Of a stretch of DNA of 64,000 nt, positions 24,150 through 55,112 are shown one piece after another. The DNA is from an uncultured bacterium (GTDB lineage Bacteria; Verrucomicrobiota; Kiritimatiellia; CAIKKV01): positions 62,001 through 126,000 of the forward strand of contig CALHRZ010000006.1 in NCBI GenBank assembly GCA_938038445.1, given 5' to 3'. Positions within the stretch are counted from its first letter, which is position 1; each line of letters opens with the position of its first letter. The notes beneath the pieces were generated by a model, which was not told the DNA's origin, ran no database searches, and saw nothing but the letters and a program-made list of their open reading frames with translations. Position numbers and translations under genes: made by a program.

Positions 24150-25142
24150 TCAGTGTACCACAACAGCCCGGCCCGTTTCCAGAGATTCTACCGCCGCCGC
24201 CAAAACTTTCTGCGCCGCAAGGCCGTCCGCACCGCTCCCGTCAATCTGATCCGGCAGAACACCGGCGGCCACCTGTTCGAGAAACGTATGAATCCGATTC
24301 CGAAACGTGTCCTCGAAATCCCGCATGCCCCCGAACACGGGATTCGTGAAAACCGTCTTTTCCGGATTTCCCGCTGGATACAACGTGACCTCACGCCACA
24401 TGTCTTCCAGAACAAAACGACCCTTCGTTCCGGCCGCTTCCACACGCTCCATCGGATGGCCCCGTTCGATATCGTAGCTCCCTGTAAGGGTCCCTATCGC
24501 GCCGCTCTGAAACTGCATCAGAAATTGGGCCGTGCTCCAAATCGTTCGTCCCGGAGCCCGGGTGGCAAAGCATTGGACCCTTTCAATGTCGCCAAAAAAA
24601 TAACGCAGGATGTCCACCGTGTGGGGATTGAGCGCCTTAATCATGAAATACGGCGAACTTTCGTTGGGATTCTTGATCCACATGCCGACATTCATGAATA
24701 AGGGATGTCCGATCCGACCCTCCTCAACCCACCGTTTTGCAAGACGCGCCGCAGGGGTAAACCGATGGTTGAAATTGATGCCCAAACAGCGGCCCGTTTC
24801 CCGGGCCGCCGCAACCATTGCCTCGGCTTCTTCAATCCGATTGCTGATCGGCTTCTCGCACAAAACATGGGCGCCTGCCTTCAGTGCCTGAATCGTCGGC
24901 TCGGCATGGTCGCTCCCATACTCGATACCTCCCGTCGCCACGCTGCACACATCGGGTCGGATCGTTCGAAGCATTTCCTCTGCATCATAAAAAGCGGGGA
25001 CGTTCAGCGCTTTTGCCGCCGTGTCCGCCCGTTCCCGAATCCGATCGCAGACCGCAACCAATTCCGCCAGCGAGTCCTCCCGGTAAATACGGGCATGCCG
25101 ATTCCCGATCGGTCCCATGCCAATGACCGCTACCCTAAGCAT
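24150..25142 (-). CDS. Gfo/Idh/MocA family oxidoreductase (cluster copy 1)
   Basis: 330 residues from ATG 25142; GGAG lies 8 nt upstream and the track's 13-residue extension is not needed. VAVIGMGPIGNRHARIY (NAD(P) site), HVLCEKPISNRIEEAE (EKP lysine), NFNHRFTPAA and KALNPHTVDILRYFF, with the candidate catalytic His. Its motifs closely follow those of 29205-30335 (TGG.E.GS.H.EPT..AL), so the two are recent paralogues. It overlaps the sulfotransferase end by 13 bases. Probably interconverts a sugar and keto-sugar in this cluster. Confidence 0.88.
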   Translation of the reverse strand: MLRVAVIGMGPIGNRHARIYREDSLAELVAVCDRIRERADTAAKALNVPAFYDAEEMLRTIRPDVCSVATGGIEYGSDHAEPTIQALKAGAHVLCEKPISNRIEEAEAMVAAARETGRCLGINFNHRFTPAARLAKRWVEEGRIGHPLFMNVGMWIKNPNESSPYFMIKALNPHTVDILRYFFGDIERVQCFATRAPGRTIWSTAQFLMQFQSGAIGTLTGSYDIERGHPMERVEAAGTKGRFVLEDMWREVTLYPAGNPEKTVFTNPVFGGMRDFEDTFRNRIHTFLEQVAAGVLPDQIDGSGADGLAAQKVLAAAVESLETGRAVVVH

Positions 25143-25906
25143 CCTCTCCTCTCCGCGCTCATTTCCGCCCCATTCGGGCATTCGTAGCCATACTGCCGCA
25201 TCGCCGGTTCAAAAAAGTCGAACCACGTGTTGCCGGAATCGCTCTTCCAACGCCCGACCGTATCCGGGCGAACGGGAATGCGTACAAGCGGAATCCCGAG
25301 AAAATCCTCGATCCGTTTCAACGTCCGTTCCTGATCCAGCACAAAATCCTCAAACCGGACCTCGATCCAGTGGCGCGGCTTCGGGGTGGCCTGCACCAAA
25401 TCATACTGGTACTTCCAGGAGATCGCCCGCCGCAAACGAAGATCATCCGTTTCCGGATAGGCGATTCCCCACCGCCGCAGATCATCCGTAATATGCCCCC
25501 CCACAATGCAGTCCCGGGGATTCCGAATCCAAAAAATGTATCGGATGTCCGGAAAGATCCGCCGAATCCAAGGAAATACCAGCGTCGTTTCGGGAATTTT
25601 CCATCCCCGCCATGGAGCGTCACTCTCCAAAACCGTCCGAAGATACGTGTGGATCAAATCGCAAAAACGGGCAGGAATCGGGGTCGCTTCCAAAGCGGAA
25701 AAATCCCATTCGAGCGCTCCGTTCCACCGGACATGAGGGGCCAGTTCAAGACAGGCGTCATACATCGGCTGCGGCGGCAGCAAATCCCCCGACTCATTGA
25801 GCGGAGTACCCATAAATACCCCGCTGGCCGAAAGCGTGTGAGAAATGGCGCGCGTGCCGGAGTGGCCGCGACCGATGATCGTGACCAGAAACGGATTGTG
25901 TTTCAC
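25130..25906 (-). CDS. Sulfotransferase family protein
   Basis: 258 residues from GTG 25906, which overlaps the preceding stop as GTGA; the track's longer start lies inside the neighbour. The 5-prime phosphosulfate loop is TIIGRGHSGTRAIS near the N-terminus and the 3-prime phosphate motif is YIFWIRNPRDCIVGG, so PAPS is the likely sulfate donor. RFEDFVLDQERTLKRIEDFLGI matches the P-loop sulfotransferase end. No signal peptide, so cytosolic. The acceptor is unknown, possibly the sugar handled by the cluster. A sulfotransferase is not expected next to a sulfatase in a simple degradation operon. Confidence 0.8.
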   Translation of the reverse strand: MKHNPFLVTIIGRGHSGTRAISHTLSASGVFMGTPLNESGDLLPPQPMYDACLELAPHVRWNGALEWDFSALEATPIPARFCDLIHTYLRTVLESDAPWRGWKIPETTLVFPWIRRIFPDIRYIFWIRNPRDCIVGGHITDDLRRWGIAYPETDDLRLRRAISWKYQYDLVQATPKPRHWIEVRFEDFVLDQERTLKRIEDFLGIPLVRIPVRPDTVGRWKSDSGNTWFDFFEPAMRQYGYECPNGAEMSAERRGCLG

Positions 25907-27309
25907 AGCGTCTTTTGCCCCCGTTGCGTCTGGAGCTCCTGTTGAAGCGCTTTCGCCGCCCCCACGGACCCTATGTGCAGTGTGTCGTAGGCCTGCTGCG
26001 CGCTTTGGAACGGGCCGCAACCTTTGTTGTGCCAATCGAGATTGGTATAGATCGGATTCCGACGCCCGGTTTCTTTTTCCCGCCGCGCAATCCAAGAATT
26101 CATCCGGTTTTCCAAAAAGGCGACCACCTCTTTTTCCTCTTCCGCCAGATTCCGGTTCTCTTCGGGATCGCGAATCAGATCGTACAATTCCACCGCAGGC
26201 TTGAAATGAAAATCAGGCTCTAACGCCCGGATCAACTTCCATTGGGGAGTCCGCCAGCCGTGTTTGCGCATCCAGGTGCATTCCGTAATGTAAAACTCGG
26301 CCTGATTTTCAAACGCCTCCCCCCGCATCAGTGGAACCAAACTGCGCCCATCAAATCGAAGGGAGGTTCGAATCCCCATGATCTCCAGAATCGTCGGCAT
26401 CATATCTTTCATTAATACCGTCTCCCCGTGCCGCCGACCGGCCGGCACAACTCCAGGCTGGACCAAGATTAGCGGAATGCGCAGCGTGCAGTCGTAAAGG
26501 CCATGATGGTCAAAATAGCAGTCGTGATCGTAGAGGGTTTCGCCGTGATCGGAATTGATGACCACCAGCGTATCGTCCTCAAGACCCAGGTCGGCAATCG
26601 CCGTCAACAGGTTCTGAATGCATGCATCCATGTAGGCAACCGCACCGTCATACTGGGCAATGATGTAATCCTTGTCCGTACATCCCGGGGGAAACCACGA
26701 AGCAAAGTAATCTGCAAACGGTTTGAAGGCATACACCGGATCGAGGGATCGGTTGTTCTTGTCGAACTCATCGTCCCCGTAAAAAATCCGCTCATACGGT
26801 CGAGGCGGCAGGTAAGGCGAATGGGGATCCATATGCCGTAGAAAGAGGAAAAAAGGCTTCCCTTCCCCCGCCAGCCGTTTCAGTTCCGGTAGAGTGACGG
26901 CGTTCAGATTCTCCGCCTTCGGACTCCGCCCCTTCTCCCATGAACCCCAGCCTTCGTAATCAATGTATTTCTGGAATCCCCGGGACGCCGGATTGCCGCT
27001 GAATCCCACGCAGGTCGTCGCATAGCCTTCCTGTCCCAACACCTCAGCCAGCGTGGTCACATGAGACCCGAGCCCCCCCTTGTGCCGCAGCGCCACAACG
27101 TCCGTCCCGAAGCAGTCCATCCCCGTGAACATCGTCGCGTACCCCGGCGTGGTGGGGATCGATGGGCTAAACACGTTCTCAAAGACCGTCCCCCTTGCCG
27201 CATAACGATCGATGTAGGGGGTGGTCAGGCGGGAATAACCATAGAGGCTCATGTGGTCCGCCCGCAGGCTGTCAATGCCAAAGAGGATCAGGTTGGGTTT
27301 TCTCTTCAT
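25903..27309 (-). CDS. Sulfatase-fold (alkaline phosphatase superfamily) hydrolase with Thr in place of the formylglycine Cys/Ser
   Basis: 468 residues from ATG 27309, GGAG 7 nt upstream; the track extension is ignored. The fold is clear: LFGIDSLRADHMSLYGY, TPYIDRYAARG.VFENVF, HMDPHSPY and NSDHGETLYDH supply metal ligands. However, the maturation motif C/S-x-P-x-R aligns with TTPGYATMFTG (residues 53-63), so Thr53 sits at the catalytic position and Tyr57 replaces the Arg. It cannot be converted to formylglycine. Thr nucleophiles occur in phosphoethanolamine transferases and NPP phosphodiesterases, so a phosphotransfer or phosphodiester role is possible. No signal peptide. It is coupled to the sulfotransferase. 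Confidence 0.85.
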   Translation of the reverse strand: MKRKPNLILFGIDSLRADHMSLYGYSRLTTPYIDRYAARGTVFENVFSPSIPTTPGYATMFTGMDCFGTDVVALRHKGGLGSHVTTLAEVLGQEGYATTCVGFSGNPASRGFQKYIDYEGWGSWEKGRSPKAENLNAVTLPELKRLAGEGKPFFLFLRHMDPHSPYLPPRPYERIFYGDDEFDKNNRSLDPVYAFKPFADYFASWFPPGCTDKDYIIAQYDGAVAYMDACIQNLLTAIADLGLEDDTLVVINSDHGETLYDHDCYFDHHGLYDCTLRIPLILVQPGVVPAGRRHGETVLMKDMMPTILEIMGIRTSLRFDGRSLVPLMRGEAFENQAEFYITECTWMRKHGWRTPQWKLIRALEPDFHFKPAVELYDLIRDPEENRNLAEEEKEVVAFLENRMNSWIARREKETGRRNPIYTNLDWHNKGCGPFQSAQQAYDTLHIGSVGAAKALQQELQTQRGQKTL

Positions 27310-27311
27310 AA

Positions 27312-28385
27312 TTAGGCTCCGTTTTGTGGGTTGGTTTCCGTCAAAAGGACTCGTCGTCCCGTTTCCGCCGATTCGTAACAAGCCAGAGTCATGCGAAGGA
27401 CTGCGGATCCCTCTTCGGCACTCGCGAGAGCCGGCCGTTGACCGTGCAAAAATTCGGCCAGGGGCTTCGCCAGCCCTGCAATGCGTTCCCCGTGATGACG
27501 AACGCCTCGACGAACTTCCACCGTCCAATGCGGATCGCCTTCACGAATCCACCGGAGCGATACACTTCCCTTCATGCGAGGGGTCGCAGCGCTCACCAGA
27601 TCGCCATACTGCTGCACGATCACACCCCGCTCACAAACAAACTCGGTGGTCAGTTCCCCGGCGGGCGCAACGAAGGTGCAGGAAACCTCCGCCAACCGCC
27701 CGTCATCATACCGGAACAGAACAATCCCGTTGTCGTTCCGAATCGCAGGACTCCGAATCGTGGACAGTTCGGCGTAAATACTCGCCGGCTGCCCAAGCAT
27801 CCAATAAATGAAATCTATCGGGTGCGCCGCATCATCCGCAAACAGATCGCGGTTCAGTTCGGGTCGAAGATGCCAGGAGGTCTCAAACCCGGGCCATCGG
27901 TGGGCATTGAGGCAATGGCGGCGACGCACGAGGTAGACCCGCCCCAGTGTCCCTTCTTCCAAGAGCGCCTTCATGCGAAGATTTTGCGGGTCTGCCCGCA
28001 TCTGCCAGACCAACGTGAACGGTACGCCCCCCCGGCGAACGGCCGTCACAATCCGATCCGCTTGTTCCATCGTCAAGGCAAGAGGCTTCTGGAGCAGAAT
28101 CGGCTTGCCCGCCGCTGCCGCCTCTTCCACCAACTCCGCATGGAAGACCGTTTCGGAAGCGATCAGAACGGCTTCCACCTCCGGAAAACGAAGGGCCTCG
28201 GCAGCCGAGCCCACGGTCGCCAGCCCCCAGGGTTGGGCAAATGATCGGGCCCGCTCCCCCTCTCGATCCCAGACCACGCGGGGAATCACTCCCAAAGCGG
28301 GGTTTCGAATCCAACTCTCGCAATAGGCGCGGGCATGGGAATGCGCACATCCAAGCACCGCCAAGCCAACGCGATGACGCCTCAT
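27312..28385 (-). CDS. Gfo/Idh/MocA family oxidoreductase (cluster copy 2)
   Basis: 357 residues. VGLAVLGCAHSHARAYCES in the nucleotide-binding region, PILLQKPLALTMEQADRI (QKP in the place of EKP), and DDAAHPIDFIYWMLG with the candidate catalytic His. It is a different subgroup from the other two copies of the cluster. A single nucleotide separates it from the isomerase-like gene and 2 nt from the sulfatase-fold gene, so the cluster is one transcript. Confidence 0.85.
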   Translation of the reverse strand: MRRHRVGLAVLGCAHSHARAYCESWIRNPALGVIPRVVWDREGERARSFAQPWGLATVGSAAEALRFPEVEAVLIASETVFHAELVEEAAAAGKPILLQKPLALTMEQADRIVTAVRRGGVPFTLVWQMRADPQNLRMKALLEEGTLGRVYLVRRRHCLNAHRWPGFETSWHLRPELNRDLFADDAAHPIDFIYWMLGQPASIYAELSTIRSPAIRNDNGIVLFRYDDGRLAEVSCTFVAPAGELTTEFVCERGVIVQQYGDLVSAATPRMKGSVSLRWIREGDPHWTVEVRRGVRHHGERIAGLAKPLAEFLHGQRPALASAEEGSAVLRMTLACYESAETGRRVLLTETNPQNGA

Positions 28386-28386
28386 G

Positions 28387-29187
28387 TCATCGAGCTCCCA
28401 ACGCCTTCAGACAGGCGTTCATATAGCCATAACTTTCCGCCGCAATCACCGCGCGCGTCGTCAAATCACAAGCCCCCGCACCGATCACCTCGAGACAGAC
28501 AGGACCCCGATAACCACCCTCGACCATCGCCCGGAAATACCCCGGCAGATTAATGTCCCCCCGCCCGCAAGCCTGGTCCCGCGCATCCCCGGGAGTCGGC
28601 CCCCGCCCTTTACAATCGCGAATATGAATATGGCGCACCCGGCTCAGCACTTTGGGAAGGGCATCCTCCGGGTTTTCCCCCGCCCGAAAAATGTGGCTCG
28701 GGTCCATGTCAATCCCAAACCCGGGAGAGGAAATTCGAGCCATGGCGCGAAGCGTGGTGTCGGTATTGTAAATGCATGCCCCCACATGGGCCTTGACACA
28801 GAGCGAAACGCCGGTCGCCGCCGCTTCATCGGCCATCTGCGCCAGAAGGTCCGTCTGGCGGAAAAAATCCTCTTCCCTTCCGGATTTTCCACCCGGGCCG
28901 ACGTTGACCACAGGAATTCCCAACGCGCGAGCCGCCGCAAAAGCCGGACGCAGCCGCTGCGGGTCGAGCGCCGCCACTTCCATGCTCAGCAGTTTCAAAC
29001 GGCGCTGCTCCGCCTTCGCGCGAATAAGGTTCGCCTGCTCTTGCCACCGATCCAACTCGAGATGCTCGCACATCCCCTTGATCGCCGACAGCTCAACCCC
29101 GTCGTAACCACACGCAGCGATGACCGCCAACGCCGTGTCCAGATCCTGGTTCTGAAAGAGAACGGTATTAACGCCCAGTTCGATCAT
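28387..29187 (-). CDS. Sugar phosphate isomerase/epimerase-like TIM-barrel protein
   Basis: 266 residues from ATG 29187, AAAGGAGCGCGAGG upstream. Metal ligands are likely the Glu of DGVELSAI, the Asp/His pair of IDMDPSHIF and the His of HIHIRDCKGRG, with the final Glu in CLEVIGAGA. Family members isomerise or epimerise sugars, and in known glycoside-cleaving clusters (DgpB/DgpC with the Gfo/Idh/MocA-family DgpA) they eliminate or hydrate 3-keto glycosides. Here it is tightly linked to three Gfo/Idh/MocA genes, so such a role is reasonable inference. Confidence 0.85.
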   Translation of the reverse strand: MIELGVNTVLFQNQDLDTALAVIAACGYDGVELSAIKGMCEHLELDRWQEQANLIRAKAEQRRLKLLSMEVAALDPQRLRPAFAAARALGIPVVNVGPGGKSGREEDFFRQTDLLAQMADEAAATGVSLCVKAHVGACIYNTDTTLRAMARISSPGFGIDMDPSHIFRAGENPEDALPKVLSRVRHIHIRDCKGRGPTPGDARDQACGRGDINLPGYFRAMVEGGYRGPVCLEVIGAGACDLTTRAVIAAESYGYMNACLKALGAR

Positions 29188-29204
29188 CCTCGCGCTCCTT
29201 TCCC

Positions 29205-30335
29205 TCAAATCCGTTCCCGAAGTGGATCACCCTTGAGCGGCGGAAGAGGCACCGGCCGAACCAATTGGCCACCGGCCTCGTAGCTTTCGACCGCCGCCTG
29301 AATAACTTCAAGGGTCGCCAGCGCATCCCGCCCCGACGCCCGCAGGTGTTCCAAGGGAACACCATTCGAAACATCCTCCAAAAAGGCATGAATCCGACGG
29401 GGAAACGTCGCGCCAAACTCCCGAATGCCCGTCTCCAACACCTCTGGCTTCGGGCTCTCCCCCAACCCGTACTTCTCGCCCGGCTTCGGCGCCGGCCAGA
29501 AGGTGAGCCGCTCAATGCAATTCTCGATGCAGAAGGTTCCGCGACTCCCCGCCACCTCGCAACTCCACCACCCTCCCAACCCCCATACGGCGTCCCCTCG
29601 ATGGCTGATCAGATAACCAATCGCCCCGTTGGAAAACCGGACGTGCACACTGTTGACGGAAAGCAGGAGATCCCCTTTGTTCGCTCGAAAGCCAGGGGTC
29701 CGGCAAAAGGCCTGTACATGAGTAATGTCGCCACAGAAATACCGCATCACGCTGAAGGGATGTGTCAAAAACGCTTTCAGATGGGCATACGGTTGATTGA
29801 AGCGAGGGGACGGATTGAACGCGTAGGTCGCTTCGCCCCCCTGAAACCCCATTTTGAACAGGATATAGATCAACTCCCCTACCGCTCCGTCGCTCATGTA
29901 TTGCCGCGCCCGTTCCGCTGTCGGGGTGAAATAGTGGTTCAGATTGCAACCCAGATAACGTTGCTTCTCCGCCGCAAAACGGACCATTTCGCGCGCTTCC
30001 CGAATGTCGCTGGAAAGAGGCTTTTCACACAAAACGTGCTTGCCGGCCGCTAGCGCCTCCATCGTGGGCTCAAAATGCCACGAGCCGTTTTCATAGCCCC
30101 CTGTAGTCACATCCACCACGTCCAGGTCCAAGTCCCTCAACATCTCGCTCAGCCGATAATAGCCTTTTACCCCGTAATCCCGGGCCGCTTGATCGGCTTT
30201 TTCTTTCACTACATCGCATACGCCGCACAGTAGGGCAAGCGGATCGGCTTTGAGCGCCTTCGCATGGGTGTTTCCTATGCCGCCCATCCCCACGACTCCC
30301 ACCCGGAGAGGTTTGTTGTCCGTATCCACGCGCAT
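29205..30335 (-). CDS. Gfo/Idh/MocA family oxidoreductase (cluster copy 3)
   Basis: 376 residues from ATG 30335, with GGAAAGGACGGCG upstream; the track's start at 30413 would leave no room for a promoter. VGVVGMGGIGNTHAKAL, HVLCEKPLSSDIREARE, NLNHYFTPTAERA and FLTHPFSVMRYF. Closely related to 24150-25142 but with extra segments. It is the first gene of the six-gene cluster and faces the araC gene across about 110 bases. Confidence 0.88.
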   Translation of the reverse strand: MRVDTDNKPLRVGVVGMGGIGNTHAKALKADPLALLCGVCDVVKEKADQAARDYGVKGYYRLSEMLRDLDLDVVDVTTGGYENGSWHFEPTMEALAAGKHVLCEKPLSSDIREAREMVRFAAEKQRYLGCNLNHYFTPTAERARQYMSDGAVGELIYILFKMGFQGGEATYAFNPSPRFNQPYAHLKAFLTHPFSVMRYFCGDITHVQAFCRTPGFRANKGDLLLSVNSVHVRFSNGAIGYLISHRGDAVWGLGGWWSCEVAGSRGTFCIENCIERLTFWPAPKPGEKYGLGESPKPEVLETGIREFGATFPRRIHAFLEDVSNGVPLEHLRASGRDALATLEVIQAAVESYEAGGQLVRPVPLPPLKGDPLRERI

Positions 30336-30445
30336 CGCCGTCCTTTCCAAACTCGGGTTTCTGAATTCGATGGAATCAATCCTATCCCGATCCAAGGGGG
30401 AATACCTTGACAATCATTTCATTATTTAGCACTTTTTTTTCATCC

Positions 30446-31327
30446 ATGAAAACCATCCCGGCCAAAGCGGTGTTCTCCGATCCCCGCTTTCCGCTGGCCG
30501 TTCGCCGCCACGATTCTCATGAACCGACGGAGCTTCACAGCCATGACTTCCATGAACTCGTCGTCATTCTGGCGGGCCGTGGCCGCCACTTGACCGAACG
30601 AGGAGACTATCCGATCACCGCGGGCGACGTCTTCCTCATCCGTGGCGAAATGGCCCACGGGTACGCCGATACCAAGGGCATGACGTTGGTCAACATCTTC
30701 TTCGACCCCCGTCGCCTTCGCCTCCCTATCCAGGCCATGGCTGAAGTGCCCGGCTATCAAGCGCTCTTCCGGGTGGAGCCTCGCCTGCGCCACGTCCGCC
30801 GCATCCCCCCGCGTCTCCATCTCCCACCCCACGATCTGGCTCGAGCCGCCGCAATGATCGCGGAACTCTCTTCGGAACTCGAAAAGCGCAACCCCGGCTA
30901 CCGTTTTGCGACAATGGCGGAATTGATGCGCCTTCTCCTCTTTCTCGCCCGCCGTTATTTCCGTTCCGGAGGTTCGGAACGACAACCTCTCCAACCCATC
31001 AGTGAACTCCTTAGCTACATCGAAGCGCATTACCCGGACCGTATCACCTTGGCCGACCTCTGCCGCCGGGCCGGCATGTCCAATGCCACGCTCAACCGAG
31101 CCTTCCATGCGATCATGGGATGCCCACCCCTGGAACATGTAATTCGCGTCCGCCTTGCCCACGCCGCTGAACTGCTCCGGCAACCCAGCATCCGAATCAC
31201 CGAGGCCGCCTTCGAGTGCGGCTTCTCCGATGCCAACTACTTCGCCCGTCAATTCCGATGCCGCATGGGAATGTCCCCCCGAGCCTGGCGTCAACTCCAT
31301 CAATCCTCATCCGGCCGGCGGCCGTAA
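30446..31327 (+). CDS. AraC-family transcriptional regulator
   Basis: 293 residues from ATG 30446. The track's TTG 30407 is the first base of a TTGACA that may be a promoter element. N-terminal cupin effector domain (LHSHDFHELVVILAGRGRHLTERG, GDVFLIRGEMAHGY); C-terminal two-helix-turn-helix domain (ADLCRRAGMSNATLNRAF, RITEAAFECGFSDANYFARQF). AraC-type regulators of this class sense sugars and usually control the adjacent operon. It is divergent from the six-gene cluster, so it probably regulates that cluster. No Shine-Dalgarno before the ATG. Confidence 0.92.
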   Translation: MKTIPAKAVFSDPRFPLAVRRHDSHEPTELHSHDFHELVVILAGRGRHLTERGDYPITAGDVFLIRGEMAHGYADTKGMTLVNIFFDPRRLRLPIQAMAEVPGYQALFRVEPRLRHVRRIPPRLHLPPHDLARAAAMIAELSSELEKRNPGYRFATMAELMRLLLFLARRYFRSGGSERQPLQPISELLSYIEAHYPDRITLADLCRRAGMSNATLNRAFHAIMGCPPLEHVIRVRLAHAAELLRQPSIRITEAAFECGFSDANYFARQFRCRMGMSPRAWRQLHQSSSGRRP

Positions 31328-51849: not shown

Positions 51850-53337
51850 ATGAACACGTTCCGGAATACGCCTTCAATCAAAATCGGCCTTATCGGAGTT
51901 AGCCGCGACTGTTTCCCGCTCGAGCTGACCCGCCGGCGGCTTCAAGAAGTGCTGGCGGAATGCCGAAAAATCAAAGTGCCCGTCGTCGCCTGCAAACGGA
52001 TCATTGAAACGGAAACGGACGCCCTGGCGGCCGCCAACGAAATGAAAGAACAGGGTGTCCACGCCGCCGTATTCTATCTCGGGAACTTCGGCCCCGAAGG
52101 CCCTATTACGATCGGCGCGCAGAAACTCGGCCTTCCCTTTATGCTCTGCGCCGCCGCCGAAGAAAGCCGCAAAACCTTGATCGAAGGACGCGGGGATGCT
52201 TTTTGCGGCCTTCTGAATGCCTCGTTCAACTGCGGTTTGCGCAGGCTGCGCCCCTACATTCCCGAACAACCCGTCGGATCCCCCAAAGCGATTGCACGCC
52301 TGATAGCCGACTTCATTCCGGTTGCACGCGTGGTGATCGGCATCCGAAACCTCAAGGTGTTTGCCTTCGGACCTCGACCACAGGATTTCTACGCTTGCAA
52401 CGCCCCGATTCAGCCGCTCTACGATCTCGGCATCGAAGTGATGGAAAATTCCGAATTGGATCTCTTCGAGCTGTTCCGTGCCGCGGCAGACCGGAAAAAA
52501 GAGATCGAGGCCGTTGCCGCCGATATGGCGCGTGAACTCGGCGCCGGGAACCGAATGCCCCAAAAACTGGCAGCGCTGGCCCAGTATGAACTGGCCCTCA
52601 TGTCGTTCTTCGAAAACAACCTCGGTTCCCGCCTTTACGGCGTGTTCGCCAATAAATGCTGGCCCGCCTTCGAAAAGGCGTTCGGTTTCGTTCCCTGCTA
52701 CGTCAACAGCCGACTGGCTACCCGCGGAATCCCGGTCGCATGCGAGACAGACATTTATGGCGCCGTTTCCGAATATCTCCTTCAACTCGCCACGGCAAAG
52801 CCGGTCACCCTGCTTGATGTCAACAATACGGTGCCCGAGGATCTCCCCATCAAAAACCTCCGTGGCGCCACACGGGCCGACTTGTTCATGGGGTTCCACT
52901 GCGGCAATACCCCGAGCTGCTGCCTTTGCCAAGATTTCTGCATGAAATACCAGTTGATCATGCACCGCTTGATGGAACCCGGCAGAGAACCCGAAATCAC
53001 GTGCGGAACGCTGGAGGGACGGATCAAACCCGGCCCCGTCACAATCGCTCGACTTGGCAGCACACCGGAAAATCAATTGAAAGCCTATCTGGCCGAAGGC
53101 CATGTACTGGATGCCGATCCATCCTCCTTCGGCAGCATCGGTGTTTTTGCCATTCCGGGTTTCGCCCGCTTCTACCGGCATGTGTTGATCGAACGGCAGT
53201 TCCCTCACCACACCGCCGTCGGGTTCCAACACGCCGGCGCCATCCTGTTCGACGCCCTGCGCATGCTGGAAATTCCCGAAATCTACGCCCCACGGCCCGC
53301 GTCCGTGGCCTACCCAACCGAAAACCCTTTCCGCTGA
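51850..53337 (+). CDS. L-fucose/L-arabinose isomerase-family protein
   Basis: 495 residues. FucI/AraA-type ketol isomerase: ARELGAGNRMPQK in the middle, CETDIYGAVSE with a candidate metal Glu, LLDVNNTVPE with a candidate metal Asp, FHCGNTP and RQFPHHTAVGF with a candidate metal His. It matches the COG2407 FucI-like group better than classical AraA. Followed by araB (35-nt gap) and araD, so its substrate is probably L-arabinose, giving L-ribulose. AGGGATAATCCC before ATG 51850. Confidence 0.75.
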   Translation: MNTFRNTPSIKIGLIGVSRDCFPLELTRRRLQEVLAECRKIKVPVVACKRIIETETDALAAANEMKEQGVHAAVFYLGNFGPEGPITIGAQKLGLPFMLCAAAEESRKTLIEGRGDAFCGLLNASFNCGLRRLRPYIPEQPVGSPKAIARLIADFIPVARVVIGIRNLKVFAFGPRPQDFYACNAPIQPLYDLGIEVMENSELDLFELFRAAADRKKEIEAVAADMARELGAGNRMPQKLAALAQYELALMSFFENNLGSRLYGVFANKCWPAFEKAFGFVPCYVNSRLATRGIPVACETDIYGAVSEYLLQLATAKPVTLLDVNNTVPEDLPIKNLRGATRADLFMGFHCGNTPSCCLCQDFCMKYQLIMHRLMEPGREPEITCGTLEGRIKPGPVTIARLGSTPENQLKAYLAEGHVLDADPSSFGSIGVFAIPGFARFYRHVLIERQFPHHTAVGFQHAGAILFDALRMLEIPEIYAPRPASVAYPTENPFR

Positions 53338-53372
53338 ATCTCCGAACCCACCCCCCCTTTGGAGGATTGGCC

Positions 53373-55112
53373 ATGGCCACTCCCAACAAACGATATGCCT
53401 TGGGTCTCGACTACGGCACCAACTCCTGCCGCTGTCTTCTTGTGGACCTCACCGACGGAACAGAAATTGCCGACGCCGTTTTCCCCTACCCCAGCGGCGA
53501 TGCCGGCATCCTGCTCGACCCCAAAAATCCCAACCTCGCCCGCCAACACCCCGCCGATTACCTCCAAGCCGCCGAACAATCGGTCCGCGCCGCACTTGAA
53601 CAAGCCCGCCACAACGATGCCGCATTCGACGCGCAATCCGTGATCGGAATCGGCGTGGATACCACCGGCAGCACCCCCCTGCCCGTTGATGCAACGGGAA
53701 CCCCCCTCGCCCTTACCCCAAAATTCCAGAACCGGCTGGCCGCCATGGCGTGGCTTTGGAAAGATCATACCGCCTACGCAGAAGCCGAAACCATCACCCG
53801 AAAAGCATCGCGGCTCCGCCCGCATTATCTGGCAAAATGCGGGGGCGTTTATTCCTCCGAATGGTTCTGGAGCAAAATCTGGCACTGCAAAAAGGAAGAC
53901 CCCGCCGTCTTCCAAGCCGCGCATTCCTGGGTGGAACTTTGCGATTGGATCCCCGCGGTTCTGTGCGGCAAAACACGACCCGATCGGATCGCCCGAAGCG
54001 TCTGTGCGGCCGGCCATAAGGCCATGTTTAATGCGGAATGGGGCGGGCTGCCCGATGCGCGATTCCTCGCCTCCCTCGATCCCGACCTCGCCGCCCTCCG
54101 CAGCCGCCTCTATTCCCAAGCCTTCACCGCCGATCATCCGGCAGGCCGTCTCTCCCCCGAATGGGCCCTACGTTTGGGGCTTAAACCAGAAATCCCGGTC
54201 GCCGTCGGCGCGTTCGACGCCCACATGGGCGCCGTCGGTGCCGGAATCAAGCTCGGAACGCTGGTAAAGATTCTGGGAACCAGCACGTGCGACATGATGG
54301 TCTGGCCCGCCAACCGCTCCCTGGCCGATATCCCCGGCGTCTGCGGAATCGTCAAAGGTTCCATCCTCCCCAATGCCTACGGCATCGAAGCCGGGCAGTC
54401 CGCCGTCGGCGACATCTTCCTTTGGCTTATCCGATGCTTGACACCCGAAAGCTTCGGAAAAACGTTCGACGACAAATTCGCTGCGCTCGCGGATGCCGCG
54501 GCCCGTCTTAAGCCCGGAGAGCATGGCCTCCTCGCCCTCGATTGGAACAACGGCAATCGGACAATTCTCGTGGATGCCCGCCTTTCCGGACTCCTCGTCG
54601 GCCAAACCCTTCACACCACCGCGCCGGAGATCTACCGGGCGCTTATCGAGGCAACCGCCTTCGGCGCCCTTACGATCATCAACCGGATCGCCGAATTCAA
54701 GGTTCCCGTGCGCGAAATCGTCAACTGCGGCGGCCTCGCCGTAAAAAATCCCCTCCTGATGCAGATTTACGCTGATGTGACCGGCCGGCCGATGAAAATC
54801 TCCCGCAGCGACCAGACCTGCGCCCTCGGTGCCGCACTTTTCGGAGCCGTCGCCGCCGGTCCCATGCATGGAGGCTTCGCCTCCGTCGCGGAAGCGCAAG
54901 CCGTTCTTTGCGGTGTCCGAGAAACCGTTTACAAACCGGATCCCGTAGCCCACCGCGTCTATGCGAAATTGTACGCCCTATACCGCCAGATGCATGACGC
55001 ATTCGGAACCCGCGAATGGCAAGGCAATCTCTCCCATGTGATGAAAGAATTGATTGCCATTCGAGAAAAGGCGCGTTCGTCCGGAACAGAGAGCGTCCAC
55101 CATGGCCGATGA
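53373..55112 (+). CDS. araB: Ribulokinase
   Basis: 579 residues from ATG 53373, GGAGG 7 nt upstream; the track adds the isomerase region. FGGY kinase of the ribulokinase type: ALGLDYGTNSCRCLLVDL, GIGVDTTGSTPLPVDATG, AMAWLWKDHTAYAEAE, CEYSSEWFWSKI-type (here GGVYSSEWFWSKIWH) and the C-terminal CGGLAVKNPLLMQIYADVTG. It phosphorylates L-ribulose to L-ribulose-5-phosphate. Overlaps araD by 11 bases. Confidence 0.93.
   Translation: MATPNKRYALGLDYGTNSCRCLLVDLTDGTEIADAVFPYPSGDAGILLDPKNPNLARQHPADYLQAAEQSVRAALEQARHNDAAFDAQSVIGIGVDTTGSTPLPVDATGTPLALTPKFQNRLAAMAWLWKDHTAYAEAETITRKASRLRPHYLAKCGGVYSSEWFWSKIWHCKKEDPAVFQAAHSWVELCDWIPAVLCGKTRPDRIARSVCAAGHKAMFNAEWGGLPDARFLASLDPDLAALRSRLYSQAFTADHPAGRLSPEWALRLGLKPEIPVAVGAFDAHMGAVGAGIKLGTLVKILGTSTCDMMVWPANRSLADIPGVCGIVKGSILPNAYGIEAGQSAVGDIFLWLIRCLTPESFGKTFDDKFAALADAAARLKPGEHGLLALDWNNGNRTILVDARLSGLLVGQTLHTTAPEIYRALIEATAFGALTIINRIAEFKVPVREIVNCGGLAVKNPLLMQIYADVTGRPMKISRSDQTCALGAALFGAVAAGPMHGGFASVAEAQAVLCGVRETVYKPDPVAHRVYAKLYALYRQMHDAFGTREWQGNLSHVMKELIAIREKARSSGTESVHHGR

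Follow-up and report, generated by a model that had tools for sequence, protein, structure and literature searches.

The window analysed here, a stretch of 64,000 nucleotides from an uncultured bacterium of the Kiritimatiellia, encodes a sulfatase-fold protein that carries threonine at the position where sulfatases form formylglycine. We refer to this protein and its relatives as family A, and conclude that they are a new, widespread member of the Thr-type group whose database name, sulfatase, is very likely wrong. Our preferred reading, to which we assign a probability of roughly 0.6, is that the protein is soluble and cytosolic and acts in a sugar pathway as a metal-dependent phosphoesterase (or transferase) with a threonine nucleophile. 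Its gene belongs to a set of six minus-strand genes that run without gaps from 30413 to 24150, an operon for which we found no description in the literature; they are listed here with the neighbouring regulator and the Thr53 codon:

30407–31327, plus strand: divergent AraC-type regulator (best NCBIfam matches RhaR/RhaS, far below their cut-offs)
29205–30413, minus strand: GFO1, a Gfo/Idh/MocA dehydrogenase (PF01408, 92.6 bits)
28387–29208, minus strand: ISO, a xylose-isomerase-like TIM barrel (PF01261, 92.7 bits; present in 78 of 81 loci)
27312–28385, minus strand: GFO2, a Gfo/Idh/MocA dehydrogenase (Pfam, 79 and 58 bits)
25903–27309, minus strand: family A, Thr-type sulfatase-fold protein of 468 residues (reading frame, Pfam and AlphaFold2)
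27151–27153, minus strand: codon of Thr53, the predicted nucleophile (Thr in 80/80 relatives; aligned to EptA by hhalign)
25130–25906, minus strand: sulfotransferase (Sulfotransfer_3, 60.8 bits, cut-off 27) of about 258 residues with a GTG start
24150–25181, minus strand: GFO3, a Gfo/Idh/MocA dehydrogenase (GFO_IDH_MocA, 100.6 bits), likely starting at an ATG near 25142

The family A frame opens with ATG at 27309 and closes with a stop codon at 25905–25903, which the GTG start of the sulfotransferase gene overlaps as GTGA. The N-terminus (MKRKPNLILFGIDSLRADH) has neither a signal peptide nor a membrane segment. PGAP labels the product a sulfatase, Pfam recognizes Sulfatase (163 bits) and SGSH_C (63 bits) domains, and AlphaFold2 returns a confident sulfatase-fold model (mean pLDDT 91.9, pTM 0.92). 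Among solved structures, phosphonate monoester hydrolase (4uph/2vqr, TM 0.71) and S1 sulfatases come closest in fold; that these are formylglycine enzymes, and not EptA or LtaS, counts against a phosphate role. Elsewhere in the window, at 51850–55112, a ribulokinase gene (672 bits, cut-off 428) adjoins one for a protein weakly like sulfoquinovose isomerase.

Residues 50–63 (SIPTTPGYATMFTG) align without gaps to the sulfatase signature C/S-x-P-x-R, with T53 at the C/S position, P55 at the proline and Y57 at the arginine, so that the formylglycine motif itself is missing. This confirms the earlier note, which had placed Thr53 at the formylglycine site and a tyrosine at the arginine site; its residue number is correct, as are its coordinates (27121–27180, residues 44–63), and the metal-ligand positions are indeed kept, as D13, D254, H255, H163 and H268/H269. 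In the model, T53 lies just ahead of helix 54–62, at its N-terminal end. The second aspartate of the sulfatase DD pair is replaced by S14, and neither of the two catalytic lysines is present.

Of 507 stretches matched in a scan of genome contigs, tblastn confirmed 498 as relatives. We assessed conservation in the best 80 loci, which are near full length and 64–78% identical to the query. All 80 are identical at D13, S14, T53, T54, Y57, N106, R158, H159, D161, H163, D228, D254, H255, E257, H268 and H269, and the same columns are identical in a separate alignment of 51 rows. Because the active-site columns do not vary, Thr53 is not a chance substitution. The site motif reads T-T-P-[GA]-Y, with P55 changed to serine in five of the 80 sequences. 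In a paralogous group, family B, the T53 position is kept and the T54 position is occupied by Glu or His; the catalytic position is therefore T53, and T54 is ruled out as the nucleophile. Family B proteins (IPTEVAHTGIFTG; for example L066 7514–9025) have Thr at the site (IPTEVAH), are annotated as sulfatases and are encoded next to APS kinase in Bacilli. A pseudoenzyme retained for binding or regulation might also have shed the sulfatase nucleophile and further sulfatase active-site residues, as family A has, but every Thr-type active-site position is invariant across the 80 sequences, and we regard this explanation as highly improbable.

Threonine at this position is in itself ordinary: among the 59 seed sequences of Pfam PF00884, the SulfAtlas paper counts 30 that have it (PMC5066984), which leaves nothing new in the substitution as such. 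The same source does not expect threonine to be converted to formylglycine, as oxidized threonine would yield a ketone (PMC5066984). The 35 canonical Cys sulfatases in a maximum-likelihood tree of 65 proteins group together as one clade (97/99). Outside it lie family A (100/100), family B (100/100), a haloarchaeal Thr protein, EptA and YejM. The branches of EptA and YejM are very long and their exact position is unsure, so we rely only on the exclusion of family A from the canonical clade. Together, the tree and the invariance of the site rule out that an ordinary sulfatase recently exchanged its Cys for Thr. The reverse case also occurs: two proteins, encoded in the genome of the window's own organism (L030, C3:191139–192137) and on a Natronosalvus plasmid (L133, 4001–5548), have the formylglycine motif intact, as CLPSR, yet show the residues of Thr-type enzymes (D-S/T and DHGE...DH), lack the sulfatase lysines and sit outside the canonical Cys clade.

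We then asked where maturases occur, searching 20 family A genomes for FGE (PF03781) and anSME (TIGR03942) over their cut-offs. Both were absent over cut-off from seven of the 20 (L037, L046, L060, L065, L075, L085 and L104); some of these are metagenome bins, and L060, L075, L085 and L104 are isolates. All five tested genomes with an adjacent Cys sulfatase, family C, carry a maturase (L048, L061, L082, L092 and L102). A host formylglycine-generating enzyme is thus not a constant companion of family A, although the window's own genome carries FGE-family genes. The earlier claim that formylglycine cannot form at this site is supported. A canonical sulfatase, matured by some unknown route from Thr53 or a neighbouring residue, would fit the PGAP name and an overall fold close to that of sulfatases; given the chemistry of oxidized threonine and the presence of family A in genomes without known maturases, we give it almost no credence.

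Thr-type members of PF00884 are well known, and family A has their characteristic combination of a Sulfatase domain, a threonine at the nucleophile position and D and D-H metal ligands. In an hhalign comparison with Escherichia coli EptA, T53 pairs with the second threonine of SCGTATAVS, H163 with the histidine of GSH, and D254-H255 with DH. In MCR-1, Thr285 is the nucleophile, and Thr285, His395, Asp465 and His466 hold phosphothreonine and zinc (PMC5031297); the equivalences are D13/E246, T53/T285, D254/D465, H255/H466, H163/H395 and H268 or H269/H478. Unlike these phosphoethanolamine transferases, family A lacks a membrane domain, its catalytic domain starting at residue 5 of a soluble 468-residue protein with an SGSH_C-like C-terminal region and a place in a sugar operon, and it scores 39 bits against an NCBIfam cut-off of 500. 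YejM/LapC and LtaS share the Thr-type sulfatase fold and a conserved metal site but are membrane proteins of the envelope, and in YejM several ligand positions deviate from those of family A; YejM is a magnesium-dependent phosphatase whose activity drops when the threonine is mutated (PMC7576196). Phosphonate monoester hydrolase/PehA, the best fold match, acts on small-molecule esters, but with formylglycine in CxPxR where family A has T-T-P-G-Y, and the PehA score is 115 against a cut-off of 900. S1 sulfatases such as choline sulfatase have the same fold and the same Pfam Sulfatase and SGSH_C domains, whereas in family A, outside their clade, the nucleophile, the arginine, the second aspartate and both lysines are replaced. 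NPP phosphodiesterases use a threonine nucleophile, and family A matches Phosphodiest (PF01663) at 38 bits (cut-off 23), but the best stretch covers only the 40 residues 221–260, and there is no full-length NPP-type domain.

Family A is common and patchy. The best 80 loci span Lentisphaerae, Verrucomicrobia, Planctomycetes, Armatimonadota, Chloroflexi, Spirochaetes, Clostridia and Bacilli, a spread from which we infer horizontal transfer. Within the phylum, 14 of 289 sampled genomes encode it, each at 750 bits or more and each with Thr; in one phylum genome the family A gene (L117 1178–2728) is split by a single stop codon. The window's own genome holds about 36 PF00884 loci, of which family A is the sole Thr member, all other readable sites being Cys. 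Two of these loci (C5:84770–85743, L146; C7:157017–158069, L010) are split or interrupted by stops and are probably pseudogenes, and Cys-type sulfatase genes cluster densely at C6:139699–146889, a cluster that lies about 14 kb past the window end, and at C10:124386–133608.

A survey of gene neighbourhoods at 81 family A loci, 43 of them in Bacilli, revealed a tight, conserved operon. The core GFO1–ISO–A–GFO3 recurs across the loci, although Gfo genes are overcounted because paralogues cross-match, and GFO3 lies downstream of family A in most of them. Sulfate genes are frequent companions: a sulfotransferase in 23 of 81 loci, APS kinase in 34 of the 43 Bacilli loci and two others, ATP sulfurylase in six, and at least one of the three in 58. 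The APS kinase is a true one, scoring 205 bits with TIGR00455 (cut-off 138.7). A Cys-type sulfatase (family C) is present in 32 loci and family B (more than 380 bits) in 34. In Bacilli, where the family-profile search found no sulfotransferase at these loci, APS kinase, family B and the Cys sulfatase usually take its place. The public annotation of Paenibacillus cellulositrophicus illustrates the arrangement, with a sensor kinase, a sugar ABC transporter, Gfo/Idh, isomerase and a 'sulfatase' (A) followed by Gfo/Idh, cysC, a 'sulfatase' (B), AraC and a sulfatase-like protein (C). In Armatimonadota, the core stands without any sulfate gene nearby. A gene for a small ASRT-fold protein (Anabaena sensory rhodopsin transducer, PF07100) adjoins the Bacilli operon at L098 5696–6070 and 12 other loci.

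The earlier note had proposed that the protein may move phosphate or phospho-alcohol groups rather than remove sulfate. The first half holds up, because the place of family A with Thr-type members and outside canonical sulfatases, as seen in the tree, the maturases and the EptA alignment, fits a phosphate or phospho-alcohol enzyme. The exclusion of sulfate is less secure: 58 of the 81 loci have sulfate genes beside family A, so a sulfate-linked role keeps some weight. With its threonine and without formylglycine, the enzyme might hydrolyse or transfer a sulfate ester as a step of the same sugar pathway. In keeping with this, family A is translationally coupled in the window to the sulfotransferase, whose P-loop GRGHSGTR and WIRNPRD motifs are conserved among 20 homologues, and sulfate genes or a Cys sulfatase are found at many other loci. 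PAPS synthesis is probably within reach of the own genome, which encodes an APS kinase and a CysD-like protein of the PAPS_reduct family and, at C7:311–315 kb, has a long frame that includes an APS kinase domain. We know of no Thr-type superfamily member that acts on sulfate esters, however, and the core operon without nearby sulfate genes and the loss of the sulfatase lysines and arginine weigh in the same direction; we consider sulfuryl chemistry unlikely. The fullest version is slightly less likely again: family A would be the first enzyme to hydrolyse sulfate esters or transfer sulfuryl groups with a plain threonine instead of formylglycine, alongside a PAPS-dependent sulfotransferase in a cytosolic sugar pathway that has moved horizontally across many phyla.

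The PAPS genes also invite a third possibility, an NPP-kind nucleotide hydrolase acting on PAPS, APS or PAP and so controlling the sulfate-activation branch. It would share the threonine nucleophile of NPPs, its Phosphodiest score exceeds the Pfam cut-off, and neighbouring genes make or use PAPS. But the core operon is also found without PAPS genes, the dehydrogenases and the isomerase would be left unexplained, and the match is confined to residues 221–260; this we judge improbable, more so than sulfuryl chemistry.

Under the preferred phosphoesterase reading, Thr53, activated by a metal at D13/D254/H255, would attack the ester, with H163 and H268/H269 holding a second metal or the leaving group. 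It would take a phospho group, rather than sulfate, from an imported or intermediate sugar or cyclitol derivative in the cytosol, and the Thr-bound intermediate would then be handed to water, as we would favour, or to an acceptor. By analogy with other pathways that pair Gfo/Idh dehydrogenases with a TIM-barrel isomerase/lyase, these enzymes may oxidize, rearrange and reduce the sugar skeleton, presumably in that order. The products of the sulfate genes may add sulfate to the same compound or remove it, or a sulfate ester may be the substrate of the Thr enzyme itself. The sugar setting is suggested by the dehydrogenases and isomerase in the operon and, in P. cellulositrophicus, by a carbohydrate ABC transporter encoded upstream of it; when the isomerase, two of the dehydrogenases and the sulfotransferase were compared with their nearest solved relatives, no specific substrate emerged. 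Genes of L-rhamnose metabolism offer one lead, the mutarotase genes following GFO3 in three loci (149–160 bits, cut-off 99.6):

L031 4027–4341: L-rhamnose mutarotase
L033 11209–11532: L-rhamnose mutarotase
L044 5161–5469: L-rhamnose mutarotase, overlapping GFO3
L060 6373–9805 and L075 10585–15417: L-rhamnose isomerase, rhamnulokinase and rhamnulose-1-phosphate aldolase genes, adjoining the operon

Although rha genes adjoin these five loci, family A genomes of the phylum show no enrichment of the mutarotase (5/14 versus 83/275). We therefore reject L-rhamnose as a certain substrate and keep an L-rhamnose derivative as one candidate.

Family A is thus common, with 498 confirmed relatives in one scan, highly conserved across phyla and very likely misannotated as a sulfatase. 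The sugar operon that it flags is unstudied, has spread by horizontal transfer and brings phosphate-type and sulfate-type chemistry together. Knowing what family A acts on would put a name to a new pathway and test whether Thr-type members are confined to phosphate.
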